A stretch of DNA of 64,000 nt from an uncultured Erythrobacter sp. (GTDB taxonomy: Bacteria > Pseudomonadota > Alphaproteobacteria > Sphingomonadales > Sphingomonadaceae). Shown in pieces: positions 46,586-63,299 of this stretch. A program made the translations under genes and the position numbers. Where the stretch lies: the NCBI GenBank assembly GCA_947488325.1, contig CANKYZ010000005.1:1-64000 (forward strand). The letters are read 5' to 3'. Numbering within the stretch: the stretch's first letter is position 1; each line of letters starts with the position of its first letter. Under the pieces are notes generated by a model. It had not been told where the DNA came from and did no database searches. It saw only the letters and a program-made list of their open reading frames with translations.

Positions 46586-47980
46586 ATGACAATATCATGG
46601 CCGAGTTGGGAGTCTTTCGCTTCCATGCGTAGTAAAGGCGCTGGATTGCTCCGGTTTCTCGCTGTGCTTGGAATTATCGCGATTTATCCCGCGGCGATTG
46701 CATCTGGAAATGGAACATTTGAAGGCGTCGCAAGCTGCGCGGGTTCGACCTGTCATGGTCGCGCCGAAGGCAATGGCGCAGTTGTTCGTCAGGATGAGAT
46801 CGCAACCTGGCAAGAACCGTCATCCGCCAGCGGTGCGCATAGCCGCGCTTACGCAGTTCTCGCCGGGCGACGCGGACAGCAAATTGCGAACAGCCTTGGT
46901 CTTGGTCCAGCAACACAGGCACCGGAATGCCTCGGGTGCCATTCGACTTTTGTGCCTTCATCGGATCGCGGTGCGCGTTTTCAGACGACAGATGGTGTCG
47001 GTTGTGAAAGTTGTCATGGCGCCGCAGAGGGGTGGCTTGCCAGCCACTATGCTCGTCCAGCAACCCACGCGTCTAATGTCGCCGACGGATTGACCCCGCT
47101 TGAAAATCCTCAAGTGCGCGCGAATATCTGTCTCGATTGCCACTATGGGTCGACTAGGACTGGCCAATTCGTCACACATTCAATGATGGCAGCAGGGCAT
47201 CCGCGCGTGTCATTTGAACTCGACCTGTTCAGCGCATTGCAGCAGCATCATGACGTTGATGACGATTATGCCTCTCGCAAACGCAAACCGAACGGGGTGC
47301 GCTTCTGGGCTGTTGGTCAGGCCGAAGCAGTGCGGCGCGCAACAAGTCTGTTTGCGCAGCCTAAATTTGGGATGGAGGGGGCGTTCCCGCAGCTCTATTT
47401 CTACGATTGCCACAGCTGCCACCGCGAAATCCAAGACTCTGACCAGCGGCGTCTGACATTCCAAACCAATCCGGACCGCCCGATCCCGTTCGGCAATCCG
47501 CCATTCAATGATGAAAATATTATCATGCTGTCAGCAGTTGCAGGCGCTTTGGTACCCGGTCAGGCAGAAAGCTTCCGCGATGCAAGCCGTTCATTCCATC
47601 GTGCAATGGGTGAAGGCAATCCAACAGTCGCACGTGAAGCGGCAGGTGCACTTTCACAGCGGGCGCGGGCGCTTTCCAATGCGCTTAGCCAGCGTGCATA
47701 TATCGATGCAGATGCGTTCCGCGTGATTGAGATCATCGGTGGCAATGCCGCACGTCCGCGTTTCACTGATTATTCCGGTTCGGTCCAGGCGGTGATGGCG
47801 ATCGACACTTTGCTCAATGGATTGGTTAGCAATGGCCGGGTGACTGCTGGAGCAGCGGCGGGCATTCGCGCCAATATCAACCGTGCTTATGCCGCTGTTG
47901 AAGAGCCAAACAGCTATAGCCCAACCGATTTCCGCACAGCGCTGAATTCGGCGACAACTGCCATTCGAAGGTTGCAATAA
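46586..47980 (+). CDS. Pentaheme c-type cytochrome (cytochrome c554-like)
   Basis: 464 residues with an N-terminal signal helix (about 20-40). Five heme c sites are seen: an unusual C51-x4-C56-H (CAGSTCH), then CLGCH (115), CESCH (140), CLDCH (182) and CHSCH (275). H85 and the conserved AAGHPRVSFELD segment near 203-212 match multiheme proteins of the cytochrome c554/hydroxylamine-linked type. The C-terminal 180 residues are helical without hemes. It should be a periplasmic electron carrier and is the first gene of a four-gene operon with an outer-membrane barrel and a decaheme protein. Catalytic function, if any, is unknown. Confidence 0.88.
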   Translation: MTISWPSWESFASMRSKGAGLLRFLAVLGIIAIYPAAIASGNGTFEGVASCAGSTCHGRAEGNGAVVRQDEIATWQEPSSASGAHSRAYAVLAGRRGQQIANSLGLGPATQAPECLGCHSTFVPSSDRGARFQTTDGVGCESCHGAAEGWLASHYARPATHASNVADGLTPLENPQVRANICLDCHYGSTRTGQFVTHSMMAAGHPRVSFELDLFSALQQHHDVDDDYASRKRKPNGVRFWAVGQAEAVRRATSLFAQPKFGMEGAFPQLYFYDCHSCHREIQDSDQRRLTFQTNPDRPIPFGNPPFNDENIIMLSAVAGALVPGQAESFRDASRSFHRAMGEGNPTVAREAAGALSQRARALSNALSQRAYIDADAFRVIEIIGGNAARPRFTDYSGSVQAVMAIDTLLNGLVSNGRVTAGAAAGIRANINRAYAAVEEPNSYSPTDFRTALNSATTAIRRLQ

Positions 47981-47982
47981 AT

Positions 47983-49941
47983 ATGGGTGGGGGTTGGAAA
48001 TTCCTTTTTGGCGCACCGTTGCTGGTGCTTTCTGCTTGTGGTGGCGGAGATTCAGCACCGGCTGGTGGCGGAACAGGCAGTGGGCCTCCTGACCCGCCTT
48101 CACCGACCTCTCCGCCATCGGGACAGTTGTTTTCATTCCCAGCCACTGAGAGTTTATCGGCTGCTGACGTGCAGACCGTGATCGCACAAGCTGCTGCTCA
48201 GGCAAACGCTCAAGGCGACGGAGCTGTCATCTCAGTGGTCGACCGGGTTGGCAATGTATTGGCAGTTTTCCAAACGCCGAATGCGCCTATGACAGCCGCC
48301 ATTCCGGGTGCGCCGAACGGTGATAATGCTGACATTCAAGGGGCCGATGTCCCTGCCACAACAGCCGCCATCGCAAAAGCAGTGACAGGCGCCTATCTAT
48401 CGAGCGGGGGCAATGCCTTTTCAACGCGCGTTGCTTCGCAAATTGTTCAAGAACACTTTCCGCCCTCACCGACGACAATTGGACTGGAAAGTGGCCCGTT
48501 GTTTGGTGTGCAATTCAGCCAATTGCCGTGTTCGGATCTGTCTGCACGGTTTGTTGATGGGATGATCGGACCGCAGCGTTCGCCGCTTGGGCTCTCTGCC
48601 GATGCTGGCGGCTTCCCGCTCTACAAGAACGGCGTCATGGTAGGCGGTATTGGCGTGATGGCTGATGGGATTTACGGGCTAGATGACAATGTGCTCGACG
48701 TGGATGTCGATGCGGACGAGTCAATTGCACTTGCTGGCACGGTTGGATTTGAAGCGCCGGTTAGCATTCGGGCTAATCGAATTTTGGTGGATGGCTCTTC
48801 GCTGCGTTACACCGATGCGACCTATGAGGGGTTGAGCGATGTATCCGGCGCGAGCTTTACGGGAACCGCCGGCGCTTTGGTGGCGGTGAACGGGTACACC
48901 AATGCCGTTATTCGTGCCGGGACAGCGTACGGCACGGAAGTGTCGGGCATGCGCCCGTCAACGGCTGCTGAGTTTTCAAACCCTGACGCTTACGTTCTGA
49001 CAGACGGCGCCGGGAACAATCGTTTTCCCTTGCGCGGAGGGACGGATGGGGCCGATATCGGATCGCCCATCACGCAGGACGAAGCAGCTGCGATCCTCGA
49101 GGAGGCCTTTGCTGTGATGAGCCGGGCTCGTGCCCAAATCAGGCGTCCGTTGGATAGTCGGGCACAAGTCTCAATCAGCCTTGTCGATACGCGCGGGCGC
49201 ATCCTTGGCATTGTGCGTTCACCCGATGCGCCGATTTTTGGGACCGATGTGAGCTTGCAAAAGGCGCGCACTGCGAATTTCTTTTCCGGTGCGTTCGCGG
49301 CGAATGAAATGCTGGCCGCGCAAGGTGAAGTGCCTGTATATGTGCAGCGCGTTCGTACATTCCTGAATGACCCCAATGCGCTAACCGGCGCTTTTGCTTT
49401 TGCAGATCGCTCTGGCGGCAATCTGTCGCGTCCATTCTTCCCTGATGGCGAAGTGGGCACGCCGCCGGGACCGCTTTCGCGGCCAATCGAGCAGTTCAAC
49501 CCGTTTTCGACCGGGTTACAATCCGCGCTTGTGCTTACAAACATTGTTGAACATCTCACCTTTGTGGGCGGGACCTCGATGAACGACGCAGATGATACAA
49601 ATCGCGGTTGTTCGACACTCCCAAACATTGCGGGGCAGGGCACACGGCTCGACAATGGTATTCAAATTTTCCCAGGCTCCGTGCCGGTCTATCGCGGCAA
49701 TGAACTGGTTGGCGGGATCGGCGTGTCTGGCGACGGTATCGATCAAGATGACATGATCAGTTTTCTGGGTCTGCACAATGCCGGGTTGCGGACTGGGACG
49801 CTTGGAAATGCACCAATGGATATACGCGCAGATCGCATTGTTGTGACGTCAAATGGTCGCCAAACTCGGTTGCGGTATATCAACTGCCCGTTTGCGCCGT
49901 TCCTCGATGATCCAGCGCAGAATGTGTGTGAGGGGCTGTAA
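47983..49941 (+). CDS. Lipoprotein with two GlcG/HbpS-like (possibly heme-binding) domains
   Basis: 652 residues. The signal peptide ends in lipobox LSAC (Cys19), followed by a Gly/Pro/Ser linker (about 20-48). Two divergent copies of a GlcG/HbpS-like domain follow: one at about 50-270 (SAADVQTVIAQAAAQA...SVVDRVGNVLAVF) and one at about 360-640 (TQDEAAAILEEAFAVM...SLVDTRGRILGIV). HbpS-type proteins bind heme or small cofactors on the cell surface. It starts two bases after the pentaheme cytochrome stop and ends two bases before the outer-membrane protein, so it belongs to this complex. A surface or periplasmic heme- or ligand-binding role is inferred. Confidence 0.72.
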   Translation: MGGGWKFLFGAPLLVLSACGGGDSAPAGGGTGSGPPDPPSPTSPPSGQLFSFPATESLSAADVQTVIAQAAAQANAQGDGAVISVVDRVGNVLAVFQTPNAPMTAAIPGAPNGDNADIQGADVPATTAAIAKAVTGAYLSSGGNAFSTRVASQIVQEHFPPSPTTIGLESGPLFGVQFSQLPCSDLSARFVDGMIGPQRSPLGLSADAGGFPLYKNGVMVGGIGVMADGIYGLDDNVLDVDVDADESIALAGTVGFEAPVSIRANRILVDGSSLRYTDATYEGLSDVSGASFTGTAGALVAVNGYTNAVIRAGTAYGTEVSGMRPSTAAEFSNPDAYVLTDGAGNNRFPLRGGTDGADIGSPITQDEAAAILEEAFAVMSRARAQIRRPLDSRAQVSISLVDTRGRILGIVRSPDAPIFGTDVSLQKARTANFFSGAFAANEMLAAQGEVPVYVQRVRTFLNDPNALTGAFAFADRSGGNLSRPFFPDGEVGTPPGPLSRPIEQFNPFSTGLQSALVLTNIVEHLTFVGGTSMNDADDTNRGCSTLPNIAGQGTRLDNGIQIFPGSVPVYRGNELVGGIGVSGDGIDQDDMISFLGLHNAGLRTGTLGNAPMDIRADRIVVTSNGRQTRLRYINCPFAPFLDDPAQNVCEGL

Positions 49942-49943
49942 TA

Positions 49944-51842
49944 ATGGCGCTTTCGCTCATCCCATTTGTGGTTCTGGCGCAGCCTGTTGCAGTTGAGGCG
50001 ACCGCGCCTGCATCGGCACCACCACCAGCCGAACAGGCTCAGGATGTGGGTACACAGGCGGAAGAAACATCGGAAGGTCTAAATCAGACTGCCAATCCTG
50101 ATCCGGAACCGTTGGATCGGGACATAATTGAAGGGCGTGAGCGCCCGGGATTTAGCTCGGCACTGCCAGAATCGATAGAGCAGGAGAATGAAGGCGCAAT
50201 CCGTGCTCCGCCGCCACAAGCATTCTCTCCTGATCAGGTTCCGATTCCTGATCGCTGGCGTTTGATTGAGGCGTTGGGGGTCGTCGAGGAAGACCTGCTC
50301 GACCCATATAATCAGAACACTTATAAGGGTGACCGTCCGATAAACCCGGACAAGGTTCCGTGGTTGCCAATCACAGGCGATGATTGGTTCTTCGTCGCCA
50401 ATCTGATTAGCGATACAGTCTATGAGCCGCGGACATTTCCAATCCCTGTTGGCATTCAAACCACTGAAGACCCGGACCGGCTCGACGTGTTCGGCGATGA
50501 TTTTTCGACCGTCTTATCGCAGACCTTCATTGCCGGTTTTGCGCTGCTCAAAGGCAGCACCGCGTATAAGCCGCCTAGCGTCGAATACCGCCTGACCCTC
50601 GCGTATAACGTCAATTATGTCGATGTGCCCGAACGCCGCGTGCTGTTTGTTGAGCCATCGAAGGGCAGCGATCGTCTCGATCACTTCCTTGGCGTGCAAG
50701 AAGCTTTTGTAGATTACCATTTCAGCCAGTTTGACAATGACCGCTACGATTTCATTTCGATTCGCGCCGGCATTCAACCGTTTCAGGCCGATTTTCGCGG
50801 GTTTCTGTTTAATGACCAACAAATGGGTGTGCGGCTGTTTGGCAACCGCGATAATAACCGCGTGCAGTTCAACCTTGCGGCGTTTTGGCGGCTTGAAAAA
50901 GATACCAATAGCGGTTTGAATTCGGTGGTGCAGAGCCCGCGCGACGATTTGGTATTTATTGCCAATGTCTACCGCCAGGACTTCCTGATTCCGGCTCTCA
51001 CCAGTCAATTGACACTTGCCTATAACCGCAACCGCGAAGCCGACGAAATTGAGATCGACGATAACGGTTTCCCCGTCCGTCCAGCATTGCTCGGCGATAT
51101 TCGTGGACGCGAATATGACGTGTTTTACCTTGGCTATAACGCTGATGGCAGGATTGGCCGGATCAACATCACTGCCAGCGCCTATTGGGCATTGGGTGAA
51201 GACCGCAACAACTTCTTCACCGGCATTCCGGCTGATATCGATGCGCAATTCGCCGCAGCAGAATTGAGCTATGATCGCGATTGGATACGTTTCCGTCTTT
51301 CGGGCTTGTATCAAAGCGGCGATGGCGATCCGTTCGATAACAAAGAAACCGGCTTTGACGCGATCTTTGAAAACCCGGTTTTTGCAGGCGCAGACACGTC
51401 CTATTGGATCCGCCAGACTATCCCGTTTGCAGGCGGTGGGCGCGCAATCGCGGTGAATGGCCGCAATGGTATTTTGAACAATCTGCGTTCGTCGAAAGAG
51501 CAAGGGCAGTCAAACTTCAACAATCCGGGCCTATGGCTGGTCGGCATTGGCGCTGACTTTGATCTCACGCCGGAAATTCGTTTCACCGCCAATGCCAATC
51601 ATCTTTGGTTTGAGAACACGGCGACGCTCGAAAATTTAAGGATTGAAGGGTCGATCCCCAGCGAGATCGGTTACGACCTTTCAGCCTCAGCAATCTGGCG
51701 GCCCAAAGCCAACCAAAATATAGTATTCCGCCTGTCGGGCGCCACCCTAATTGCGGGTGACGGGTTTCAAGACTTGTTCGACAACCTCGGCAACCAGGAT
51801 GCATTCTACTCCATCCTCGCAAACGTGACGTTGACCTACTGA
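49944..51842 (+). CDS. Outer-membrane beta-barrel protein of a cytochrome operon
   Basis: 632 residues. A short signal peptide ends VVLA-Q, followed by a Pro/Glu/Ala-rich periplasmic segment (about 20-120). From about 175 the sequence alternates as amphipathic strands with turns rich in Asp/Asn (for example RLTLAYNVNYVDV, QFNLAAFWRLE, RFRLSGLYQSGDG) and ends SILANVTLTY, with a terminal aromatic as BAM substrates have. It contains no cysteine. By analogy with MtrB/PioB it could hold a multiheme cytochrome across the outer membrane, but I see no MtrB-specific motif. Its stop overlaps the decaheme gene start (TGATG). Confidence 0.8.
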   Translation: MALSLIPFVVLAQPVAVEATAPASAPPPAEQAQDVGTQAEETSEGLNQTANPDPEPLDRDIIEGRERPGFSSALPESIEQENEGAIRAPPPQAFSPDQVPIPDRWRLIEALGVVEEDLLDPYNQNTYKGDRPINPDKVPWLPITGDDWFFVANLISDTVYEPRTFPIPVGIQTTEDPDRLDVFGDDFSTVLSQTFIAGFALLKGSTAYKPPSVEYRLTLAYNVNYVDVPERRVLFVEPSKGSDRLDHFLGVQEAFVDYHFSQFDNDRYDFISIRAGIQPFQADFRGFLFNDQQMGVRLFGNRDNNRVQFNLAAFWRLEKDTNSGLNSVVQSPRDDLVFIANVYRQDFLIPALTSQLTLAYNRNREADEIEIDDNGFPVRPALLGDIRGREYDVFYLGYNADGRIGRINITASAYWALGEDRNNFFTGIPADIDAQFAAAELSYDRDWIRFRLSGLYQSGDGDPFDNKETGFDAIFENPVFAGADTSYWIRQTIPFAGGGRAIAVNGRNGILNNLRSSKEQGQSNFNNPGLWLVGIGADFDLTPEIRFTANANHLWFENTATLENLRIEGSIPSEIGYDLSASAIWRPKANQNIVFRLSGATLIAGDGFQDLFDNLGNQDAFYSILANVTLTY

Positions 51843-54800
51843 TGCTTGCATTTAGCCGTTTCTCACCTCGTTATGTCCTCCTTGGGATGGCAGTGCTCCT
51901 GTTGGGGCTGTCTGTGCTTTTGCCTGAAACTCAGGCGGCAGATAAGGAAACGCCGACATATCGGGATTACAGTTTGGTCACCGCTGCGCCAGCGCCAGCG
52001 CGCCAATCTCAGGCAGAAATGGATGCCAAATCAGAGGGGTGCTATACGTGCCATCTGCAAACTGATGCACCAACGATGCACACGACGCCTGCTGTGCGGC
52101 TGGGCTGTACCGATTGCCACGGCGGTAATGCGAGTGTGCGCGGAAATTCTGATCTGCCGCAAGATCATCCGGAATATGTTGCGGCGCGCGATTCTGCTCA
52201 CGTTCTGCCGAAATATCCCGACAGCTGGCATTTCCCATCGTCGGCTAACCCGCAACGTTCCTACGCTTTGCTCAATCAGGAATCGCCCGAATTTGTGAAG
52301 TTCGTGAACCCGTCGGACTACCGCGTAGCGCGCGAAGCTTGCGGATCTTGCCACATCCAGTCGATTGAGGCTGCGGAACGCTCAATCATGGCGACAGGCG
52401 CGATGCTGTGGGGCGGGGCGACCTATAATAACGGCATTCTTCCCTTCAAAAACTACATTCTGGGTGAGGCTTACACCCGCAGCGGTGATCCAGCGACGAT
52501 CAGCGGCATTGCCAATGTCCTTTCCTCCCCGGGCGAAGGTGAAGATGGCGCATTGACAGACCAACAGCGTGCGCGCGGTGTGCTGTCGGAACTTTATCCT
52601 CTGCCAACATGGCACGTGATCCCGCCTGCCGATGTATTCCGGGTGTTTGAACGCGGCGGTCGTACGATCCTGTCGCAATTCCCAGAGATTGGCATTCCCA
52701 ATCCGACCGGCCTGATCCAGCGGCTCGAAGAACCCGGACGCCCTGATCTAAAACAATCAAATCGTGGTCCGGGAACAGGCCTGCGCGTGGCAATACCGGC
52801 GCTTAACATTCACAAAACGCGCCTCAACGATCCGTTCACATGGTTCATGGGCACCAACGATCAACCGGGCGATTATCGCCATTCGGGCTGTGCGAGCTGC
52901 CATGTGGTCTATGCCAATGACCGCGAACCGCGCCATTCGCTGGTCTATGCGCAATATGGCCGCGACGGTCAGACCATCACAGTCGACCCGACGATCAACA
53001 CGCAGATGCAAGAAGAGCATGGCTATGACAGTCATGGCGGCGATGGTCAGGGGGCAGGCGGTCACGGCGGTTTACGCCAGCCGGGAGAGAGCTACGATGA
53101 TCATAGTGGTGATGGGCATGGTGAAGCGCCAGTGCGTGAGTCCGGTCACCCGCTTCAACACGTCTTTACCCGCTCGATCCCAACATCACAGTGCATGTCA
53201 TGCCACATGCACCAGCCAAATATCTTTCTTAATTCGTTCCTTGGTTACACGATGTGGGATTATGAAAGCGACGCACCATCAATGTGGCCGGGGCCAGAGA
53301 ACACGACCCCGCGCCCAGAGGGTATGAGCGACGCGGAATACGAAGAATTCTACCAGACTCAGCGTTTCCCCACCGCCGAAGAGGTGCGCGCAATCCTTGA
53401 CCGCAATCCAGAGGCCGCTGCTGCAAAAGGGCTGTGGGGCGATCTCGACTTCCTGCGCAATGTCTATGAACTGAACCCGACGCTCGAGCACACACAATTC
53501 GCCGATTATCACGGCCACGGTTGGAATTTCCGCGCGATCTTCAAACGTGACCGCGACGGAAACATGCTTGATGCCGACGGTGAGATATTGCGTCCATCAG
53601 AAGAAGGCGACACGCCTGAAGAGGCTGCCCGTCACGATGATCGCTGGCGCCAGCGCTGGCGGCGTGATGGAGAGGGGCAGTTCGTTGAACCTGGCACAAA
53701 TCCAGGCGAATCCGTCCATATGATGAGCATCCATGCCGAGGTCGGCATGCAATGCGTGGATTGCCACTTTGAACAAGACGCACATGGTAATGGTCTGATT
53801 TACGGCGAAGTCGCCAATGCGATTGAGATCGGATGTATTGACTGTCACGGCACCGCCGATGAGTATCCGACATTGCGAACCAGCGGCCCTGCAGCTCCGC
53901 CAGAAGGACACAATCTTGCACTGCTCCGCAACCCAGACGGTCAGCGCCGGTTTGAGTGGATTGAAAACGAAGAGGGCCGCCGTGTCCTGATTCAGCGCTC
54001 GCTCGTCGATCCAGAACTTCAATGGGAAATGAGCCTTGTGCGCGACTCGGTTGATCCGGCGACACCGGTCTTTAATGCGCGGGCCGCTCGATCAAAATTG
54101 ATGAGTCGTTATGGTGCGGAAACGGGCCGGTTTGAATTCGGAAGCGGCGTCGAAGAAGAAGATCGTGCACACCAGAATGAAGAGATGGCGTGTTTCACCT
54201 GCCATCTTTCATGGACGACGTCATGTGGCGGTTGTCACCTGCCTATCGAAGCGAATTGGAAGACCAAATCGCACCGCTATGAAGGCGGATCGACACGCAA
54301 TTTTGCAAGCTACAATCCGCAGGTTGCACGCGATCAGATGTTCCAGCTTGGCGTACACCAGACGACCAAGGGCAATCAAACCGCTCCAGTTCGTTCGTCT
54401 TCGGCGTTGGTTTTATCATCGACCAATATCAACCGCGAACGCATCTATGTGCAGCAGCCGCCAATTTCAGCGATCGGCTTCTCATCGCAAGCCTTTGCGC
54501 CGCACTTCCCGCATACTGTGCGTCTGAATGAAACAAAGACCTGTACTGATTGTCACCTTGCTGAAGAGGAAGACAACAATGCGATTATGTCACAGCTCCT
54601 GCTGCTTGGCACGAACTATGTGAACTTCGTCGGGATGCATGCGTGGACCGGATTAGAAGGCGGTCTGACCGCCGTGCGGGTCACTGAATATGATGAGCCG
54701 CAAGCGGTCATCGGTTCCTACCTTCACCGCTATTCAACGCCAGATTACTGGCAGATGCATGTAGAGGATAATGACCGAGAACTGAAAAACTGGGTGCGCG

Positions 54801-56116
54801 GTGAGGCGTTTGACGAAGACCTGTCCGGCGAAACCAAGCCGTTCGAAGAATTCGTCAACGTGCATGAGGGAACGGCGGGCCGGGTCGGCTGTCTGCAATT
54901 GCGCGGAGAATATCTCTTCGTTGCAGAAGGCAGAGGCGGTTTTCGCGCCTATGATGTTGCCTCGATTGCTAACAAGGGTGTGTCTGAGCGGATCATCACC
55001 GCGCCATTCTCTCCGCTTGGCCATGACACGCATGTCGATACTGAAGACGCGACCTGTATGGCGCTGCCTACGAACCAGCCTATCGCGCCAGAGCGCAACA
55101 CTCCGCAAATGCGCGAAGTGAACCAAGAACAACCATTCTTGCCGATCTACAATTATGCTGCGGTCACTGACTCGATCGAAGGCCTGATCATGGTGGATGT
55201 GAACACGCTGGCCGACGGCGAGTTCCGCGATAACTTCTTTGAGCGTCTGGAATATTCAGATGGCACAGATGCGTGGAACCCAGATGGTGTGCTGAATGGC
55301 GCGAGCCATATTCACCTTGCCGGTGAGGTTGCCTATATCACCGCAGATCGTGGATTGGTCGTAGTGGATCTTTCCAACCCGCAGTCGCCGCAGCTTTCCG
55401 CAGTGCGTGAGTTGACCGATGCGCGGGCAAGTGCGATCCAGTTCCGCTATCTATGGGTGAGTGATGCCGAGGGTGTGAGGTTGTTCGATGTCACCGACCT
55501 ACGCAATCCAATTGCTGTGCCAGAGGCGACGTTCCCGCTTGCCGATGCACGCCGCATTTATGTCGCGCGTACGTATGCCTATGTCGCGGCGAAGGGTGAT
55601 GGGCTTGTCATCCTCGATGTTGAGAACCCACGTGCTCCTACGCTGCATCAAAAGGTGACTTTGGACGGGACGCTCAACGACGCGGAGGATGTGATCGTTG
55701 CATCCACCAATGCTTCACTGTTCGCCTATGTGGCCGATGGCCGCAATGGAATGAAGGTGCTACAGCTCACCAGTCCCGATAGCCAGCGCAATTTCTACGG
55801 CTTTAGCCCTGCTCCTGTGCCAGAGCTTATCGCCTATGCTGAGACATCTTCACCTGCGATTGCATTGTCCAAAGGGATCGACCGTGACCGTGCGGTGGAT
55901 GAGACCGGCGGACAGATGGCGGTATTTGGCCGCCTTGGTTCGCGACCCTTCACCCGCGAAGAGATGGAACGACTGTTCATGACCCGGTCGGGTATACCGT
56001 GGCGCGTTACCGATGAAGTCGACATGGATCGCTGGGTTGGCCGTGGCGTTGGTCCGTTGCGCCGCAATGCCAATATAGACGCAGGGCCAGACGGCGTGGC
56101 GCTGGGCGGGGACTGA
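51842..56116 (+). CDS. Giant decaheme c-type cytochrome with LVIVD beta-propeller domain
   Basis: 1424 residues. After a signal helix (about 10-32) ten CxxCH heme sites occur at Cys 67, 89, 167, 350, 451, 638, 665, 784, 795 and 901. A His/Gly/Asp-rich insert (about 395-440, EEHGYDSHGG...) lies between hemes 4 and 5 and may bind metal. From about 1000 the sequence becomes LVIVD-type repeats (VVVDLSNPQSP, LFDVTDLRNP, VILDVENPRAP), which fold as a beta-propeller and are found in surface and choice-of-anchor proteins. It is the last gene of the operon after the outer-membrane barrel. Localisation is periplasmic or cell surface. Ten hemes recall MtrA/MtrC, but it is much larger and not clearly homologous. 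Confidence 0.88.
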   Translation: MLAFSRFSPRYVLLGMAVLLLGLSVLLPETQAADKETPTYRDYSLVTAAPAPARQSQAEMDAKSEGCYTCHLQTDAPTMHTTPAVRLGCTDCHGGNASVRGNSDLPQDHPEYVAARDSAHVLPKYPDSWHFPSSANPQRSYALLNQESPEFVKFVNPSDYRVAREACGSCHIQSIEAAERSIMATGAMLWGGATYNNGILPFKNYILGEAYTRSGDPATISGIANVLSSPGEGEDGALTDQQRARGVLSELYPLPTWHVIPPADVFRVFERGGRTILSQFPEIGIPNPTGLIQRLEEPGRPDLKQSNRGPGTGLRVAIPALNIHKTRLNDPFTWFMGTNDQPGDYRHSGCASCHVVYANDREPRHSLVYAQYGRDGQTITVDPTINTQMQEEHGYDSHGGDGQGAGGHGGLRQPGESYDDHSGDGHGEAPVRESGHPLQHVFTRSIPTSQCMSCHMHQPNIFLNSFLGYTMWDYESDAPSMWPGPENTTPRPEGMSDAEYEEFYQTQRFPTAEEVRAILDRNPEAAAAKGLWGDLDFLRNVYELNPTLEHTQFADYHGHGWNFRAIFKRDRDGNMLDADGEILRPSEEGDTPEEAARHDDRWRQRWRRDGEGQFVEPGTNPGESVHMMSIHAEVGMQCVDCHFEQDAHGNGLIYGEVANAIEIGCIDCHGTADEYPTLRTSGPAAPPEGHNLALLRNPDGQRRFEWIENEEGRRVLIQRSLVDPELQWEMSLVRDSVDPATPVFNARAARSKLMSRYGAETGRFEFGSGVEEEDRAHQNEEMACFTCHLSWTTSCGGCHLPIEANWKTKSHRYEGGSTRNFASYNPQVARDQMFQLGVHQTTKGNQTAPVRSSSALVLSSTNINRERIYVQQPPISAIGFSSQAFAPHFPHTVRLNETKTCTDCHLAEEEDNNAIMSQLLLLGTNYVNFVGMHAWTGLEGGLTAVRVTEYDEPQAVIGSYLHRYSTPDYWQMHVEDNDRELKNWVRGEAFDEDLSGETKPFEEFVNVHEGTAGRVGCLQLRGEYLFVAEGRGGFRAYDVASIANKGVSERIITAPFSPLGHDTHVDTEDATCMALPTNQPIAPERNTPQMREVNQEQPFLPIYNYAAVTDSIEGLIMVDVNTLADGEFRDNFFERLEYSDGTDAWNPDGVLNGASHIHLAGEVAYITADRGLVVVDLSNPQSPQLSAVRELTDARASAIQFRYLWVSDAEGVRLFDVTDLRNPIAVPEATFPLADARRIYVARTYAYVAAKGDGLVILDVENPRAPTLHQKVTLDGTLNDAEDVIVASTNASLFAYVADGRNGMKVLQLTSPDSQRNFYGFSPAPVPELIAYAETSSPAIALSKGIDRDRAVDETGGQMAVFGRLGSRPFTREEMERLFMTRSGIPWRVTDEVDMDRWVGRGVGPLRRNANIDAGPDGVALGGD

Positions 56117-56220
56117 CCGAATGCGTGTCCGTGCAAGTAACGCACATTCTGCGAGCACGGAAGGAAACTCTTTGAACTTTAAAGGGAAAGAGCTCTTGCT
56201 CAGTCCATCCAGCACGCTCG

Positions 56221-57090
56221 TTACGTGCGCTCGGCGAATAAACCCTTCATCATTGGCTTAAGATGATCTTCAAACCGGGCGAGTGTTTGCCAATGGCCGA
56301 CAGGCTGGAAGTGCGAGACCAATGTTCCGTCCCGCCAAAGGTGCAGGCTGTAAAATGGAGGTTCTGCGGCGACGATCGGCCGCCTGTCCGCATCATCGAT
56401 ATCAAGTGGACGCAGATCTAGCGCAACCGCAGGTGCGACCGCTGGCGTCACGCTTAACGGAATGCCTTCAACCATGGAGTGCAATGGTCGGTGCAAATGT
56501 CCGGCCTGGATCGAGACGATCTGTTTGTGCCCTGCCACTGTGTCATGAAACCGCTTGAACCATGGTTCATTCGGTTTGGGATCCATCCAATCAATTCCAG
56601 CAACAACCGGCGGGTGGTGCAGGAACAGGATTGTCGGCGTGTCAGGATGCTCGTCCAGCTCACGCGCCAACCATGCTGCACGTATTTCGCAAAAGGCGCC
56701 GCCATGCCGGCCCGGCTCGAATGAATCGAGGCACAGAACGCGCAGACCCCGGCACTCGATTGCGAACTGCGCAAAGCCATCGGCAGTCGGACAATCGGGA
56801 AATGCCCTGAGCATTTCTTCACGGCTGTCGTGATTTCCAGGAATGACGTGGACTGGGAATGGGCAATCTTGGACCAGATTCCGGATACGGCCGTAGCATT
56901 CCGCTTGACCGCCATCGGTCAGATCACCTGATAATATCAGCATGTCGGGGCGAACCGGTTGGTTCAGCAAATGTCCTAAGACATTGCGAAACCGCACGAA
57001 ATTGAATTCGTTCTCACCCGCTTCTGGCTCAAAGCCAACATGCGTGTCGGTAATCTGTGCAATCAGCACACCGCTTTTGTCGCTCTTCAT
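56221..57090 (-). CDS. CpdA-like class III cyclic nucleotide phosphodiesterase
   Basis: 289 residues, close to CpdA (about 275). The metal motifs are all present in order: QITDTHVG (D-x-H), LSGDLTDGG, IPGNHDSR, LFLHHPP and AGHLHRPLH. This set defines class III phosphodiesterases that hydrolyse 3',5'-cAMP, though the family also takes other phosphodiesters. It is the last gene of the minus-strand electron-transfer operon, three bases after the FHA-decaheme gene. The operon's first gene has two cyclic-nucleotide-binding domains, so local control of a cyclic nucleotide signal is a reasonable inference. Confidence 0.82.
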   Translation of the reverse strand: MKSDKSGVLIAQITDTHVGFEPEAGENEFNFVRFRNVLGHLLNQPVRPDMLILSGDLTDGGQAECYGRIRNLVQDCPFPVHVIPGNHDSREEMLRAFPDCPTADGFAQFAIECRGLRVLCLDSFEPGRHGGAFCEIRAAWLARELDEHPDTPTILFLHHPPVVAGIDWMDPKPNEPWFKRFHDTVAGHKQIVSIQAGHLHRPLHSMVEGIPLSVTPAVAPAVALDLRPLDIDDADRRPIVAAEPPFYSLHLWRDGTLVSHFQPVGHWQTLARFEDHLKPMMKGLFAERT

Positions 57091-57092
57091 AC

Positions 57093-58880
57093 CTAACGTC
57101 TTAGACTGCCCAGGATCGCAGCGACAGAGTCATTACCGCCATTTCCGGGGAGATTTGGGTGATCGTCAGGACGCCACGGCATAGTTGGCGTGTGATAGCC
57201 ATGGCACATCGCACAACTTGAAGGCGTGATTTCCTCTGTCTTCGTGGCGGTTTCGCCCTGATGACAGTCGCGGCAGCTATCAAGATCCGGGATCAGCAGG
57301 TCGGTCGCCTCACCTGATGTGTCTGCCGTGTGGCAATCGGTGCATTCTGCCACATCGTCGCCATGCGCTTCGTGCGTAAAGTGCCCACGCATCAGGAAAC
57401 GGTCCGGCAGATTGACCGGAGTAAGGTTGCGGCGACCATTGGTGCTGGTGGGAATATGACATTCACCGCAGACGCCGGTTGGTTCAAGCGCACGGTTGAT
57501 CGCGATATAGGCGCTCATCGGACGGCCAAAGTTCGAATAATACCGTCCTCCTCGAGCAAATTGACCTGGCCGACCTCTGCCAGAGACAACAGCAGATCGA
57601 GGGCCGCGATCCATTGAGGCAAGGTCTGCCATCAGATCGTCAACATCGCCGTGGCGTAGCGACCGGAAATTCGGCCCATTTCGGTCGAATACGAGGCTGT
57701 GGCAGCTTTCGCAGGCTGACTCCATTTCAACAGGGGCAAAGCCGTAACCGTCTTCCTCTTCCTCATGACAATTGCTGCATTCTAGAGGTGCACCATATTT
57801 GCCCAGGCTGATTGCCATGCGAGCGACGCCACTATTCGCGTCCATGTGAATGTCATGCGGGAAGATCAGGCCGCTTTGTTCGACAGGGCTATCATCGAAA
57901 GAGACTCGGGTTAGCTCTGTGTCGAAATGCGCGGCGTAGAATTGCGGACGAAATTCAGGATGTTTCTTACCGAAATCGGCGGCATTGCCGAATGATACGT
58001 TGGTCAATCGCGTGTCGAGTCCGTTGTGACAGTCTGAACAGAATTGTTCGCTTGCCGCTTTGAGCTCTACCGCACCTTCATGCTCAGAATGGCAAGACAC
58101 GCAGCCAAGTGGACCCTCTTTTCCCAGTGTTTCAGCGATTTGCCACTGGATTGCGTCGCCCGTGCCGAACGGCGCCATACCTTCAGCAAGGCGGGGCATT
58201 TCCGCATGATCGCCCAGCTCCTCGTGGCAAGTCAGGCAAGTTTCGTCTTGGACAGATACGAAGGGCGTTGCGTGGCAGGCTTCGCAATTATCCTCCAGAT
58301 CGTGGTGGGCCATGCTCAAATCGCCGGTGCTCCAGGTCGAGTCGAACCGGACCTGACCAGCGGCAAGATTTTCTGGATCATTCTCAACAGGAGTGCGGGT
58401 CAAATGAGTAATGATCGGGACTGATAGCAACAGGATGATGATCGCGGCGGCAAGGCCCCAAGCCATCAGCCGCTTGCTAGGCAGAGTGCTGGCCAAAGCA
58501 AAACCCTGTATGGCATCGCCGGCGCCTTCGTCCTTTTCCACCTGCTTGATGACGATCTGAACCGGCCCGTCACCATCGCGCGAAATCGCAAGTCGGGATG
58601 AACCAAGCGACAATTCCGTACCGACATTCGGATCGATTTCAGCACGCATTTCGGTTCGACCATTGATGCCAAAACCAAGGCCGCCAACCGATTCAATTGC
58701 CAATTTACCGGTGCCAGCATCACTAATTCGAACGTGACGCTGCTCTACTGCAAGATCGGGCAGCGCAATGTCATTCTCGGACGCCCGGCCTATACTGATC
58801 TCACTTTGATCAACAGTTCGGTCGCGGATAATTTCCCGCCCTGCGGCGGTGAAATCGATGGTGCGGATCAGGAATGCCAT
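57093..58880 (-). CDS. FHA domain - transmembrane - decaheme cytochrome c fusion
   Basis: 595 residues with three parts. Residues 25-105 form an FHA phosphothreonine-binding domain (IGRASENDIAL, EQRHVRI, INGRTEMRA). Residues 138-159 are a single transmembrane helix. Ten CxxCH sites follow at Cys 199, 215, 260, 281, 368, 390, 471, 513, 536 and 556, so the cytochrome part should be periplasmic and the FHA cytoplasmic. No cleavable signal is present; the internal helix must direct export of the C-terminus. It starts 11 bases after the di-heme b gene and likely takes electrons from it. FHA domains normally report Ser/Thr kinase activity; no such kinase is in the window. Confidence 0.9.
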   Translation of the reverse strand: MAFLIRTIDFTAAGREIIRDRTVDQSEISIGRASENDIALPDLAVEQRHVRISDAGTGKLAIESVGGLGFGINGRTEMRAEIDPNVGTELSLGSSRLAISRDGDGPVQIVIKQVEKDEGAGDAIQGFALASTLPSKRLMAWGLAAAIIILLLSVPIITHLTRTPVENDPENLAAGQVRFDSTWSTGDLSMAHHDLEDNCEACHATPFVSVQDETCLTCHEELGDHAEMPRLAEGMAPFGTGDAIQWQIAETLGKEGPLGCVSCHSEHEGAVELKAASEQFCSDCHNGLDTRLTNVSFGNAADFGKKHPEFRPQFYAAHFDTELTRVSFDDSPVEQSGLIFPHDIHMDANSGVARMAISLGKYGAPLECSNCHEEEEDGYGFAPVEMESACESCHSLVFDRNGPNFRSLRHGDVDDLMADLASMDRGPRSAVVSGRGRPGQFARGGRYYSNFGRPMSAYIAINRALEPTGVCGECHIPTSTNGRRNLTPVNLPDRFLMRGHFTHEAHGDDVAECTDCHTADTSGEATDLLIPDLDSCRDCHQGETATKTEEITPSSCAMCHGYHTPTMPWRPDDHPNLPGNGGNDSVAAILGSLRR

Positions 58881-58890
58881 GACGCCGGCC

Positions 58891-59763
58891 TCACCAATAG
58901 AAGAACACGCTCACGACATGCGCGAGCAGCGCGGCGAGCAAAGCTATGGTCGCCGGGATGTGAACGAAAAGCCAAATTTCGAGCATGGCCCGAATGCGTA
59001 AATGGCGGCGAATTTGGCCGAGCTGATCAGAGCGTTTGGTCAGTAGTGCGCGCACGCGCTCTTCTGGATCATCTGTTTGGCCACTTGTTTCCGGAAGGCT
59101 CTTTAGCGCGCGATTGGTGGCGCAACGTGGATAGGCTCCGGCTAGGCGGGCAAACAGACCGCCATAAAAGACGTCTTGGCCTAGAGCGGAGATCACCAGA
59201 TCGGACTGCTGACGATCAAGCGGCTGTGCTGCGCTTTCCAACTGACGGTCTAGCGCAGTTAACGCTTCCAACATTTGTGCGCGGGTCAACTCGTTGCGGT
59301 TCGATGATAGGGTGCTGGGCAGCGCCGCGTAGACAATAACGCCATAAATGCCGCTGATGATAACGGTGAGCATCAAGAAATAGGCGAGCGTGTGGACGTT
59401 CCAACCGACCTGAAAACCGGTGTGGAGCGTCCCAACAACAATCAATGCGAGGCCGAGATAGACATGCGCGCTTGTCCACGCTTTGAGGCTCCATTGCCCA
59501 GCCGTCATTTTGCGTTTTCTAATCCCCAATAAGGAAAGCCAGACAATCAGCATCAGTCCAATCGTACCGAGCGTATAACCATACCAGCTGCCGCCATTTG
59601 GGCGTGGTTCCTGATCAATCAGCGCATAGCCAGCAATGCTGGCCATGCAGAGCAACACGGCGATCCAAAGCCAGCGGAACTTCTTATGCTTTAGAAAACT
59701 GACGTGATCGGCATTACGCCGTCGCTCATCCTGATTGAACCGGTTATTAGGAGCCGTCGCCAT
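58891..59763 (-). CDS. Di-heme b-type cytochrome membrane protein
   Basis: 290 residues with about five transmembrane helices (about 31-50, 62-82, 98-116, 124-147 and 262-288) and a cytoplasm-like insert between the fourth and fifth. Histidines at 100 and 114 lie in one helix and at 268 and 282 in another, giving two H-x13-H pairs, the spacing for two stacked b hemes across a membrane as in cytochrome b and ferric reductases. The ATG overlaps the stop of the flavoprotein gene by one base (TAATG). It probably carries electrons from the cytoplasmic iron-sulfur flavoprotein to the periplasmic decaheme domain. Confidence 0.8.
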   Translation of the reverse strand: MATAPNNRFNQDERRRNADHVSFLKHKKFRWLWIAVLLCMASIAGYALIDQEPRPNGGSWYGYTLGTIGLMLIVWLSLLGIRKRKMTAGQWSLKAWTSAHVYLGLALIVVGTLHTGFQVGWNVHTLAYFLMLTVIISGIYGVIVYAALPSTLSSNRNELTRAQMLEALTALDRQLESAAQPLDRQQSDLVISALGQDVFYGGLFARLAGAYPRCATNRALKSLPETSGQTDDPEERVRALLTKRSDQLGQIRRHLRIRAMLEIWLFVHIPATIALLAALLAHVVSVFFYW

Positions 59764-62207
59764 TATTCGGCCTCCTCCGTCAGTTTGGTGAAGGTCAGGA
59801 ATTTATCTGGAGATACGCGGATTGCCGCGCCCGTTGGGCAAGCCCGGACACAGGCAGGGCCGCCGTCAATGCCAGAACACATGTCGCATTTAATTGCCTG
59901 TTTGGGTTGTTCGGGATCGCCGTGCTCTTTGCGCCAAGCATAGGACGCCTCACCCGGTCCCGGACCACTGCCAAAGAACAGCCATTTAAGAAGTGACGGT
60001 TTTTTCGGAGGCTTCGGGTCCATCCGGATCACACCGTAAGGGCAATTGCGCTGACAATTGCCGCAACCGATACAGGTATCGTCGATCACGACTTCGCCAT
60101 CCGGACCACGTTTGATTGCATTGGGCGGACAATCCGCCATGCAATGCGGATGTTCGCAGTGGCGGCATGATGTCGGAACGTGAAGGTGTGCGTAAGTCCG
60201 GCCCGCTTCCCGGTCGAGCCGTGACAAGCCTTCATGCGCATCGGCGCAGGCTTTTTCACAATTATCGCAGCCGACGCACAGTTTTTCATCGATCAGCAGG
60301 ACGTCAGTCGCTTCGCCCAATCCTTCATCGACCAGGAATTGCGCAGTCTCTGAATAGAGATCGACAACGCCGGAAAATTGATCCTTACGGCTTTCAATAA
60401 AAGCGTTGGTTTTGCGCCGACCGTCCATCTCTTTGAGAGCTTTTTCACGCAGTGCTGGATTGTTGTCGAGCAGAGCGGCGAATTTTTCACCGGGCAAGCG
60501 GATTGCTTCAGATTTAATCGCGGCTTTCACGGTTGCTGTGCGCGACGACCCATCAATTGCCGCCATTTCCCCGACATAACTGCCCGCGGGAAGGTAAGAG
60601 AGGAAGACCTGTCGATCGCCGATGGTTTTTTCGACAACCATCGATCCACGGCGGATGATATAGACGTCCTGATCGTCATCGCCTTCGGTGATTAGGGCCT
60701 TACCAGCCCTGACATCAATCACCTCAGACGCTTCGACCAATGGTGCGATGTCTTTTGGCGTGAGGCCCGATCCAAACATTTGCAAAAGTTGACGCTCAAC
60801 CGCGATGCGGTTCACGGCTTCAGCCGCTTCGGGTGAGGTTGCGATCAATTTCAGCGCGGCATTTCGGGCAAGCTCTATGGCAACCACTGTCTCTGCCGCC
60901 CGAATGGTCGAGCCACGGCGACGGCCGGAAATAAGACCAACTTCGCCAAAGATTGAACCTTGCTCAATCGGCACTGTGAATGAAGGGTCATTGGGATTGA
61001 TTTCAACCGCAACGGAGCCCTCTGCTATAGCGAACAAGGATGACCCCGGATCGCTGCGCCGAAATATTGCATCGCCCGGATCGTAGGCATGGACCGTGGA
61101 ATCGAGCATCAATTCGCGCAATTGCAGTGTTGAAAGACCTTTCAACACCGAAACATTGCCGCCAAACACATCAAGCCAATGTTCGACCGAATGATCGCCG
61201 GGCAGGCTTGCGAATTTCTCCAACAGGATCGGTTCATCCGCTGGCTTCAGATCAGAATTCCCGTTTAGGAATTCGATCACATCATAGCCTTGATTCATGC
61301 AATGCTTGATCAGCGGATATCCAGCCAGCGCGCCAATGACATGGATGCCAGGTGCCGTCGTTTCAAATGCTGGTGTCAGCTTTGGAAACGCGCTGCGTTC
61401 TTCGCTGGAAAATTCGATTCCCATCGATTCGACAAATCCGCGTGGTGGTTGTGAGCCCGTGCGTGCGATAATGCGGTTGCAGGAAATAGTGTCTTCGCCG
61501 TCGCGTGTTTCGAGGACAAGTTCACCATCTTTTACGCCAGCTGGGCTGGTTTCCCTGCGAACGCTAATCCGGCCATCTTTCTCTGCTTCTTCGAGCAGCG
61601 AAACATTGGCAGCCTTTGCCCGCGCAAAACTGTCGCGGCGATTGAGGATGGTGACGACATTGCGCTGCGCATCATCGGCGGCGAGGCCAAGTGCGTTCTC
61701 AATACCGGCATCGCCCGATCCGATGACCGTGATATGTTCATCATAATACTCACCCGGATCATCCAGTTGGTATTGGATCATGGGATGATCTGAACCCGGG
61801 CACCGCAGCATATTCGGGTTGCCCTGCGTTCCAATCGCCAAGACAATGGTTTCGGCGCGGATCGTTTTACCGTTTTTCAGGGAGATGGTGAAATCGCCCT
61901 TTTGGCCTTCGACCTTGTTTACCTCAGCATCGAATTCAACATTGATTTTCTGCTCAGCAGATTGTTCGTCCCAAACACCCAAGATCGTTTCACGCTTGCC
62001 TGCATCGAAATCAAGATCACTGCGCAACACCAGATTCGAAGGCGTCGCCATGACATGCTTGCCTTTTTGGTACTTGTAGATCGTGTCAGACAGATGATCT
62101 GTCTTTTCGATCAATACATGAGACATACCAATAGCGGCCGCATGACCAGCAGCGCTTAATCCGGCAGGACCGGAGCCAACGATGGCGACTTTATACAAGT
62201 CCGACAA
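59763..62207 (-). CDS. Flavoprotein with two cyclic-nucleotide-binding domains and four [4Fe-4S]-type clusters
   Basis: 814 residues. Residues 1-320 are a two-Rossmann flavoprotein (GSGPAG at 10-15, VIGSGDAGIE near 162) like thioredoxin reductase, but without its redox CxxC. Two CNB domains follow (about 345-460 and 480-600) with phosphate-cassette segments FGEVGLISGRRRGST and VGEMAAIDGSSRTATV. The C-terminus has four ferredoxin motifs (CVGCDNCEKAC, CRHCEHPHCMADC, CIGCGNCQRNC, CDMCSG...CVRAC), as in DmsB/NrfC subunits. No signal peptide, so cytoplasmic. It likely moves electrons between NAD(P)H, FAD and the membrane cytochrome, modulated by a cyclic nucleotide. The start is TTG with AGGGGGGGG upstream. 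Confidence 0.9.
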   Translation of the reverse strand: MSDLYKVAIVGSGPAGLSAAGHAAAIGMSHVLIEKTDHLSDTIYKYQKGKHVMATPSNLVLRSDLDFDAGKRETILGVWDEQSAEQKINVEFDAEVNKVEGQKGDFTISLKNGKTIRAETIVLAIGTQGNPNMLRCPGSDHPMIQYQLDDPGEYYDEHITVIGSGDAGIENALGLAADDAQRNVVTILNRRDSFARAKAANVSLLEEAEKDGRISVRRETSPAGVKDGELVLETRDGEDTISCNRIIARTGSQPPRGFVESMGIEFSSEERSAFPKLTPAFETTAPGIHVIGALAGYPLIKHCMNQGYDVIEFLNGNSDLKPADEPILLEKFASLPGDHSVEHWLDVFGGNVSVLKGLSTLQLRELMLDSTVHAYDPGDAIFRRSDPGSSLFAIAEGSVAVEINPNDPSFTVPIEQGSIFGEVGLISGRRRGSTIRAAETVVAIELARNAALKLIATSPEAAEAVNRIAVERQLLQMFGSGLTPKDIAPLVEASEVIDVRAGKALITEGDDDQDVYIIRRGSMVVEKTIGDRQVFLSYLPAGSYVGEMAAIDGSSRTATVKAAIKSEAIRLPGEKFAALLDNNPALREKALKEMDGRRKTNAFIESRKDQFSGVVDLYSETAQFLVDEGLGEATDVLLIDEKLCVGCDNCEKACADAHEGLSRLDREAGRTYAHLHVPTSCRHCEHPHCMADCPPNAIKRGPDGEVVIDDTCIGCGNCQRNCPYGVIRMDPKPPKKPSLLKWLFFGSGPGPGEASYAWRKEHGDPEQPKQAIKCDMCSGIDGGPACVRACPTGAAIRVSPDKFLTFTKLTEEAE

Positions 62208-62219: not shown

Positions 62220-62315
62220 TTTGGATAGATTTCACACAATTCCCACCATAAGGAAAGTGTGCCCCAATGCCAGAGACAATTGCCGTTTTCTGCTCCACTT
62301 GCTAGTGAAATCATC

Positions 62316-63299
62316 ATGGCATCAGAAACTAATGAAACACCTCGAGGTACATCAGGCGGTAATTCTGGGGGCAAAGCGGGCTGGATATTACTTGGTGCTG
62401 CGGCTGTTCTTGCCGCTGGTTCAATAGGCTACAATGTTTATGACGGCGGTGGTGCGCCGGTCGGAACAGAGGCGGCTACCGACGAGATGCTATCTTTAGA
62501 CGAGCTTCGCGCGGCTGCGGAAGCGTCTAGCGATGACGCCAGTCCGTGGAGCGAGTTGGCATTCGCGTTGTTTGAACGCGGTGCATATAGTGATGCGGCA
62601 GACGCTTATGAGCGCGCGGTCGCTTTAGATGACAGCGAAGCCATGCTTTGGTCCGCCCTTGGAGAAGCGCGTGCCTATGCGAGTGAGAGCGGGGCATTGC
62701 CTGCTGATCCTCTACCTGCCGCTGCATTGGAAGCGTTCGAAAGGGCACTAGAACTTGATCCAGGCGATCCGCGCGCACGTTATTTCATGGCTGTGAAACA
62801 GGACCTGGACGGAAATGCCGAAGGCGCGATCACATCTTGGCTCGCTCTGCTTTCAGAAACGCCGCCGGGTGCGCCGTGGGAAGGTGACCTTGTACGAACC
62901 ATCCAACAAGTCGGCGCCATCAACGATATCGATATTGAAGGGCGTCTGGCGACAGTGATGGAAGCGCGCGCACCATCTGCGTTGGTGCCCGGATCGGGAG
63001 ACGCTGCGGGCGAGGCTGCGTCAGAAAACCTGCGCGGGCCGACTGCGCAGCAGCTAGCAGAGGCCAGCCGCATTCCTCCCGGAGAACAACGCAACATGGC
63101 CGAAGGAATGGTCGCGCAGCTTGAGGTCCGGTTGGAAAACGAGCCTGCAAACCTTGATGGCTGGGTTATGCTGATGCGCAGCCGCATGACTTTAGGTGAA
63201 CCGGATAAAGCTTCTGCGGCTTTGGCTTCGGCCATCGCGGCCAATCCGGGCGAAGAAGAAGAGTTGCGGGCACAGGCTACTCAGCTCGGCATTCGATAA
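62316..63299 (+). CDS. TPR protein resembling the C-terminal part of CcmI/CycH (cytochrome c maturation)
   Basis: 327 residues from the ATG at 62316 (the open frame begins at 62259, but the MASETN start fits the membrane helix better). One hydrophobic helix at about 25-45 is followed by TPR-like repeats (ELAFALFERGAYSDAADAYERA, AFERALELDPGDPRARYF). The closing part, GPTAQQLAEASRIPPGEQRNMAEGMV and LENEPANLDGWVMLMRS, is characteristic of the periplasmic domain of CcmI/CycH, which holds apocytochromes c for heme attachment. Classical CcmI has two N-terminal helices; this has one. It is divergent from the flavoprotein operon, only 108 bases away, and may serve these multiheme proteins. Confidence 0.72.
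   Translation: MASETNETPRGTSGGNSGGKAGWILLGAAAVLAAGSIGYNVYDGGGAPVGTEAATDEMLSLDELRAAAEASSDDASPWSELAFALFERGAYSDAADAYERAVALDDSEAMLWSALGEARAYASESGALPADPLPAAALEAFERALELDPGDPRARYFMAVKQDLDGNAEGAITSWLALLSETPPGAPWEGDLVRTIQQVGAINDIDIEGRLATVMEARAPSALVPGSGDAAGEAASENLRGPTAQQLAEASRIPPGEQRNMAEGMVAQLEVRLENEPANLDGWVMLMRSRMTLGEPDKASAALASAIAANPGEEEELRAQATQLGIR

Follow-up and report, generated by a model that had tools for sequence, protein, structure and literature searches.

A candidate NADPH-driven trans-envelope electron transfer system encoded by two convergent operons of an uncultured Erythrobacter sp.

Two convergent operons (positions 46586–62207) in a 64,000-nt stretch of DNA from an uncultured Erythrobacter sp. 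(assembly GCA_947488325.1, contig CANKYZ010000005.1, positions 1–64,000 of the forward strand; hereafter the window) form a single system, judged from gene order and co-occurrence. We propose a trans-envelope chain that would run from NADPH through a flavoprotein (N), a cytochrome b (b) and two multiheme cytochromes (F and a pentaheme protein) to a decaheme protein with a beta-propeller (X), with an outer-membrane barrel (B) as a selective channel and with gating by cyclic nucleotides. This proposal, to which we give just under an even chance, draws on domains, motifs, co-occurrence, the operon shared with other families and the relative conservation of the parts.

Two operons, one gene set

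The two operons hold eight open reading frames (ORFs), separated within each operon by gaps of 2–10 nt or overlapping by 1 nt, and 104 nt lie between the convergent ends; a preliminary description of this DNA had located all eight correctly and noted the near-zero spacing. The forward strand encodes the pentaheme cytochrome c (p5h), with a signal-like N-terminal helix and a c554-like heme region (46586–47980); H, a predicted lipoprotein with HbpS/GlcG-like domains (PF03928; 47983–49941); B, predicted from a structure model to be an 18-strand outer-membrane barrel of AlgE fold (49944–51842); and X, a decaheme cytochrome with a signal-like N-terminus and a C-terminal LVIVD beta-propeller (51842–56116). 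The reverse strand encodes N, which joins an FNR/TrxR-like FAD domain, tandem cyclic nucleotide (cNMP)-binding domains and a 16-Cys domain for four [4Fe-4S] clusters (59763–62207); b, a predicted di-heme cytochrome b with five transmembrane (TM) helices, WX3HX13H on TM3 and TM5 and SGXXG on TM4 (58891–59763); F, an FHA-like domain with one TM helix (residues 133–165) and a decaheme wire predicted to be periplasmic (57093–58880); and an accessory metallophosphatase resembling the cyclic-nucleotide phosphodiesterases SpdA and CpdA (56221–57090; PF00149 above cut-off). The 25 c hemes counted earlier were recovered as 24 CXXCH and one CX4CH (5 motifs in the pentaheme protein, the CX4CH among them, 10 in X and 10 in F); in 2000 shuffled controls per protein, the mean CXXCH count was at most 0.03 and no shuffle exceeded 2. 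Domains that score above their Pfam cut-offs are LVIVD, HbpS-like, metallophosphatase, cytochrome c3/c7/c554, FAD, Fe-S and, in two stretches, cNMP-binding; FHA falls just below its cut-off.

All loci used for synteny and identity were fetched through X. Of 16 loci that represent other families within the class, 13 carry the genes in the order N-b-F-H-B-X on one strand; the other three comprise one locus cut before N and two with N after X. N, b, F, H and B were all present in 11/11 other-family loci having at least 8 kb upstream. The Sphingomonadaceae set comprised 102 loci, including five that share X DNA with another locus and were left in. With at least 6 kb upstream, B was found in 86/86 of these loci and H and the pentaheme gene in 85/86; with at least 7.3 kb downstream, N, b and F were within reach in 70/84. 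For the 15 loci without N beside X (14 of the 84, and L128 with 5.9 kb), N was found elsewhere in the genome in 15/15 cases, and the fetched N regions of such split genomes (L195, L197–L199) carry N with b, F and the phosphodiesterase in 4/4. The pentaheme gene is likewise present in the genome of 7/7 other-family carriers that lack it in the fetched stretch (in G305, just past the stretch).

Co-occurrence gave the same picture. X and N were both found in 23 of 61 relatives and neither in the other 38; X was found in 20 and N in 26 of 289 genomes of the class (N in 20/20 X-carriers), and X in 11 and N in 15 of 398 genomes of the phylum (N in 11/11 X-carriers). N was scored at a cut-off of E = 1e-100 in the first two samples and of 1e-60 in the phylum sample. 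We dropped 5 of 25 X matches in the class sample (best E 1e-7 to 2e-6, over short stretches) and 1 of 12 in the phylum sample (G586, 28% over 199 residues). With the samples pooled and shared genomes counted once, X without N occurred in 0/49 genomes; the 15 split-operon genomes overlap this pool in at least one case (G348 = G725). N in 49/49 X-carriers, together with the operon shared in other families, led us to reject two unrelated neighboring operons and to uphold the single system proposed in the preliminary description. That description had taken one operon occurring without the other as evidence to the contrary, which we found in one direction only: X was never without N (0/49, and 0/15 in the split-operon genomes), and N occurred without an X match in 10 genomes. 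In two of these (G085 and G499) the contig breaks off within the same operon, and two others (G120 and G165) are PCC4-like (see below). Two more (G112 and G317) have N-b-F and the pentaheme protein, with no H-B-X; G364 has N-b-F and a second N, with no pentaheme match; G389 and G498 have a fused N-b and F, with no pentaheme match; and G180 has N alone within 20 kb, with a weak pentaheme match. Since genomes with N and without X exist, the inner half can be regarded as a module of its own, separable from the outer half.

Some individual loci deviate in content or location. At L192 (8731–15088), N-b-F and the pentaheme gene are retained in a 2.2-Mb genome (stretch 32% GC) with no X match, and the Sphingomonadaceae contig of L126 has B-X without detectable H or pentaheme gene upstream, despite a 10-kb flank. 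A conserved protein of ~159 aa, unmatched in Pfam, is encoded between F and H at L057 (3914–4393), its family being found in 7/23 other-family loci. The whole cluster (L166, 518–25046) is carried by the 959-kb Sphingobium herbicidovorans plasmid pMSHV, typed as conjugative, and X is found on 13 plasmid records at 80% coverage or more (12 Sphingobium, 1 Sphingopyxis). Directly upstream of the pMSHV cluster are a ShlB/FhaC-type transporter and a 2092-aa protein. A two-partner secretion exoprotein was rejected as a general partner of the system, TpsA-like proteins being near the cluster in 17/119 and TpsB in 5/119 sequences, counts that include the query's own locus.

Relation to described porin–cytochrome clusters

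The earlier statement that the gene set matches no conduit that can be named no longer holds as worded: the inner half fits the putative PCC4 clusters of He et al. (2017; PMC5566968), and the outer half is probably among the clusters of PMC13264449. As described in the main text of PMC5566968, PCC4 is proposed to comprise a porin, cytochromes with 4, 5 and 10 hemes, and a five-TM inner-membrane protein (IMP) with two WX3HX13H (TM3, TM5) and SGXXG (TM4), a signature common to PCC3 and PCC4. In PCC4 subgroup II a PF13247 gene lies upstream of the IMP gene, the two being once annotated as a single gene. The window is similar in that b carries the five-TM/WX3HX13H/SGXXG signature, PF13247 (in N) adjoins b, and a 10-heme F, a pentaheme cytochrome having 4 CXXCH (plus the one CX4CH) and a porin are present; the one-gene Fe-S/IMP form is also seen in G389 and G498. 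It differs in that no 5-CXXCH cytochrome was found among the cluster ORFs, so that the 4/5/10 set is lacking and a second decaheme protein, X, is found instead, and in that H and the decaheme-propeller X belong to its outer module. The terms 'FHA', 'cyclic nucleotide' and 'alginate' are absent from the main text of PMC5566968. We therefore read the system as a PCC4-type inner module (five-TM signature, PF13247, F and a 4-CXXCH cytochrome) joined to another outer module, H-B-X, and did not file it as PCC4 because the 4/5/10 heme set was looked for and not found. Two loci, L189 and L190, encode N, b, F, the pentaheme protein, a 5-CXXCH cytochrome and a ~535-aa protein that ends in Phe, has no Pfam match and is a putative porin; on gene content they fit the published description of PCC4. 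Alignment of B with this porin-like protein (hhalign, two sequences only) gave a probability of 0.3%, and thus detected no homology between them.

For the outer module, the main text of PMC13264449 (2026; metagenome-assembled genomes from karst) describes a 'first group' of 11 porin-cytochrome clusters with a 4–5 kb decaheme gene beside a ~20-strand porin, and a ferredoxin-NADP+ reductase gene near 7/11 of them. The X gene is 4.3 kb and also lies next to a porin gene; judged by gene descriptions, the 'first group' probably represents this system, with its X, B and N. That paper gives the group no name, nor do 'FHA', 'LVIVD' or 'NADPH' occur in its main text. Our search of the open-access literature (main texts) returned two papers with related clusters, neither naming this gene set; precedent thus exists for the inner module (PCC4) and probably for the outer one (PMC13264449), and the combined set is without a name in the literature searched.

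Decaheme cytochromes and an outer-membrane barrel are shared with MtrCAB and PioAB. The inner part of Mtr, however, is a quinol-oxidizing protein of the CymA type, whereas here it is an NADPH-type flavoprotein with a b protein, and the barrel is AlgE-like. The best score for the MtrA/DmsE family (TIGR03508) was 21.4 bits, against a cut-off of 192.2, and B has no MtrB/PioB family match in Pfam or NCBIfam. Because of these missing family matches we did not file the system as Mtr/Pio. A cluster of MtrAB type is reported in PMC13322032. PCC3, as given in PMC5566968, has repeat-rich cytochromes (median 34 and 21 hemes) and porins with up to 42 TM strands, compared with 10, 10 and 5 hemes and an 18-strand barrel model in the window; an Erythrobacter sp. 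is listed there as a PCC3 carrier, which does not imply identity with the window cluster. A 51-residue stretch of X matches ExtM of the Geobacter ExtHIJKLMNOPQS cluster (54 bits, cut-off 800). The Ext cluster (selenite/tellurite; PMC5877670) also has a porin, multihemes and a b-type cytochrome, but it includes a Rieske protein, a rhodanese and a selenoprotein, and a single short stretch is shared.

Proposed electron path and its alternatives

Electrons would enter at N, in the cytoplasm. Its FAD domain is thioredoxin-reductase/FNR-like, and NADPH is presumably preferred, an assumption we base on a motif of thioredoxin reductase. Its ferredoxin domain is of the four-cluster, HycB-like type (PF13247, 42.9 bits against a cut-off of 26.2), and all 16 Fe-S Cys are retained in 94/94 alignment rows. 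N ends at the start of b, and the two are fused into one ORF in two genomes (L225, 3052–6423, 1123 aa; L226, 9850–13206, 1118 aa), where the fused gene adjoins an F with 9 CXXCH and no H-B-X was found. In keeping with the label di-heme b, five TM helices are predicted and WX3HX13H occurs twice (residues W96 and W264 of the window protein; SGXXG at S137), both copies being kept in 107/108 rows and SGXXG in 87/108; from the two motifs we infer that b carries two hemes, with which it would take electrons over the inner membrane. Pfam cytochrome b561 scored slightly under its cut-off for b (26.7 against 30.1 bits). F and the pentaheme protein would relay electrons through the periplasm. The ten CXXCH of F and another ten His are at least 98% conserved across 108 rows, which allows bis-His ligation of every heme and leaves none that must be catalytic; the heme residues of the pentaheme protein are at least 99% kept in 102 rows. 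One sequence match of F to a known structure, covering 46 residues of a subunit of alternative complex III (E = 0.0027), was not used.

Electrons would then be delivered to X, predicted at the outer membrane. We favor outward flow because the named carriers of X (among them Erythrobacter, Sphingobium, Novosphingobium, Sphingomonas and Sphingopyxis) are mostly heterotrophs and because the chain starts at an NADPH-type flavoprotein. The reverse direction, in which X would take electrons from a donor outside the cell or in the periplasm (Fe(II), Mn(II) or an organic compound) and the chain would carry them to the quinone pool or NADP+, draws on the reversibility of FNR-type flavoproteins and is opposed by the same heterotrophy; we consider it improbable. 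The main text of PMC5566968 offers a precedent for it, proposing inward flow for PCC4 with the IMP, the counterpart of b, at the quinone pool; that of PMC13264449 argues for export, since most of its carriers lack carbon fixation. A flavoprotein of NADPH type beside a b protein with HX13H pairs, likened in the main text of PMC5566968 to ferric reductase/NOX, would also suit an NADPH-oxidase-like maker of extracellular superoxide or peroxide whose multihemes pass single electrons to oxygen. This is extremely improbable, as reduction of O2 would not need a propeller, a barrel and a lipoprotein, and the putative O2 chemistry comes without a recognized oxygen-reacting site.

In the outer module, H would be a companion lipoprotein of B; Cys19, which we take to be the lipobox residue, is kept in 90% and four other Cys in at least 99% of 108 rows. 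B has no family of its own in Pfam or NCBIfam at E = 0.05, and 31 B rows searched at E = 1 gave alginate export in two rows and three single stray matches only; two sequence matches to known structures (E 0.3–0.9) were judged to be chance. The structure model of B is an 18-strand AlgE fold of middling confidence (mean pLDDT 65.8). MtrB is not among the 50 structural matches listed for this model, a weak negative and no proof of absence. In the solved structure MtrB has 26 strands; it was given 28 predicted strands in the main text of PMC5877670. The 18-strand, AlgE-like model makes the Mtr/Pio analogy of the preliminary description, with a heme wire in a wide barrel, doubtful.

A strict porin–cytochrome conduit, in which X or the pentaheme protein threads B and electrons exit to a surface mineral, an electrode or a shuttle, is unlikely. 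The B and X genes overlap by 1 nt and occur together in 86/86 and 15/15 loci with enough flank, and the main texts of PMC5566968 and PMC13264449 call similar clusters porin–cytochrome complexes; the strand number of B, the lack of MtrA and MtrB family matches, and a strict conservation of X across families that is unlike a generic wire all speak against it. Under the proposed chain, B would instead be a selective channel or docking site for the substrate or partner of X, not a sheath around a heme wire. An AlgE/OprD-like fold suggests transport of a solute or polymer, which would also fit a wholly periplasmic reductase: B would import the substrate, X would reduce it in the periplasm, and no electron would cross the outer membrane. 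This differs from the proposed chain only in the location of X, and it is in line with N-b-F and the pentaheme protein occurring without H-B-X in G112 and G317. The predicted lipoprotein H and the large propeller of X are parts often found at surfaces; neither is decisive, and we give the periplasmic reductase a small probability.

X itself would be a terminal, substrate-specific oxidoreductase. Its ten heme motifs are invariant in 22/22 rows of an alignment chosen by homology alone (A1) and in 73/73 rows of one limited to ORFs with 9 or more motifs (A3; 73 aligned of 109 usable X fragments), and 13 further His outside the propeller are invariant in the 73 sequences. X had no sequence match to known structures at E = 0.01. 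A model made on an ortholog (L058) is good in the propeller and poor in the heme region (444 of 1199 residues with pLDDT below 50), and the 50 structural matches listed for it are mostly beta-propellers; because the heme part is modeled poorly, we make no claim on its fold. The argument for an enzyme comes from relative conservation. The median identity between the window proteins and those of other families was 56% for X, 53% for B, 50% for N, 49% for H, 43% for b, 37% for the pentaheme protein and 30% for F (N, 7 loci; pentaheme protein, 8; the rest, 15–16; owing to cut loci or short matches). The conservation of X is therefore close to that of N and B and far above that of the wires F and pentaheme, from which we infer that X is an enzyme and not merely a wire.

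Several points weigh against the proposed chain. Inside Sphingomonadaceae X does not stand out, its median identity (69%) being no higher than that of B (71%) or N (70%), with H at 66%, b and the pentaheme protein at 63% and F at 49%; as, in addition, the loci were fetched via X, the enzyme argument rests on the cross-family contrast with F and the pentaheme protein. The surplus His of X may be structural, and with B modeled at middling confidence and the heme part of X poorly, X may yet prove to enter the barrel or to dock onto it. The second Arg in the NADPH-type stretch of N is kept in less than 90% of rows; F scored slightly under the Pfam FHA cut-off (20.1 against 20.7 bits); inward flow has its precedent in PCC4, as noted above; and the candidate cyclase of the window genome is distant (see below). 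A more specific version, in which the system is a widespread cyclic-nucleotide-gated, NADPH-driven outer-membrane reductase of aerobic alphaproteobacteria that bypasses the quinone pool, takes electrons across both membranes and ends in a propeller-decaheme enzyme acting on one specific substrate via an AlgE-type channel, is tentative and rather doubtful.

Regulation, accessory genes and distribution

A cyclic nucleotide would gate electron entry through the two cNMP domains of N, whose relatives in the PDB include regulatory subunits of PKA, with an alignment spanning both domains. These domains, the adjoining phosphodiesterase and a CHASE2-cyclase together suggest cyclic-nucleotide control, of which the latter two enzymes would be the likely controllers. 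The preliminary description had counted the CpdA-like enzyme as part of the system. It was found in 69/84 Sphingomonadaceae loci and in 0/9 other-family loci with enough flank, with a weak match (38%, ~5 kb from F) in one more locus (L229, G600), and was therefore rejected as a core part; SpdA and CpdA models match its product, but far under their cut-offs. The CHASE2-cyclase family, labeled from a scanned member (family copy at L107, 1466–3541), occurs near the cluster in 24/81 Sphingomonadaceae loci, mostly upstream and on the same strand. In the window genome the family copy (58%; G000:C5:177236–179308) is ~115–120 kb from the cluster.

The gene set is common in sphingomonads and shared by many other bacterial species, as far as sequence searches indicate. 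We confirmed at least 594 X stretches in one-per-species genomes, a count obtained with two search patterns that lie close together, so that one gene might count twice. At least 6822 database proteins match the X profile, the weakest of which may be other multihemes; the best 120 matches carry names of the kinds 'hypothetical protein', 'LVIVD repeat' and 'multiheme c-type cytochrome'. The closest named relatives of X among the matches listed are from uncultured Erythrobacter (94% and lower). If the proposed chain is right, common aerobic soil and marine bacteria would have a regulated outlet for NADPH at the cell surface, outside respiration. The gene set is testable, and bears on why aerobes keep trans-envelope cytochromes and on the role of the putative PCC4 clusters.

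Divergent to the N operon, a gene for a TPR protein with CcmH/CycH-like TPR (62259–63299, forward strand; PF23914, 42.1 bits against a cut-off of 42) is kept in 69/84 Sphingomonadaceae loci and is possibly a dedicated helper of cytochrome c maturation. Elsewhere in the window, positions 38818–41871 encode a 1017-aa protein with a vault/inter-alpha-trypsin (VIT) domain.

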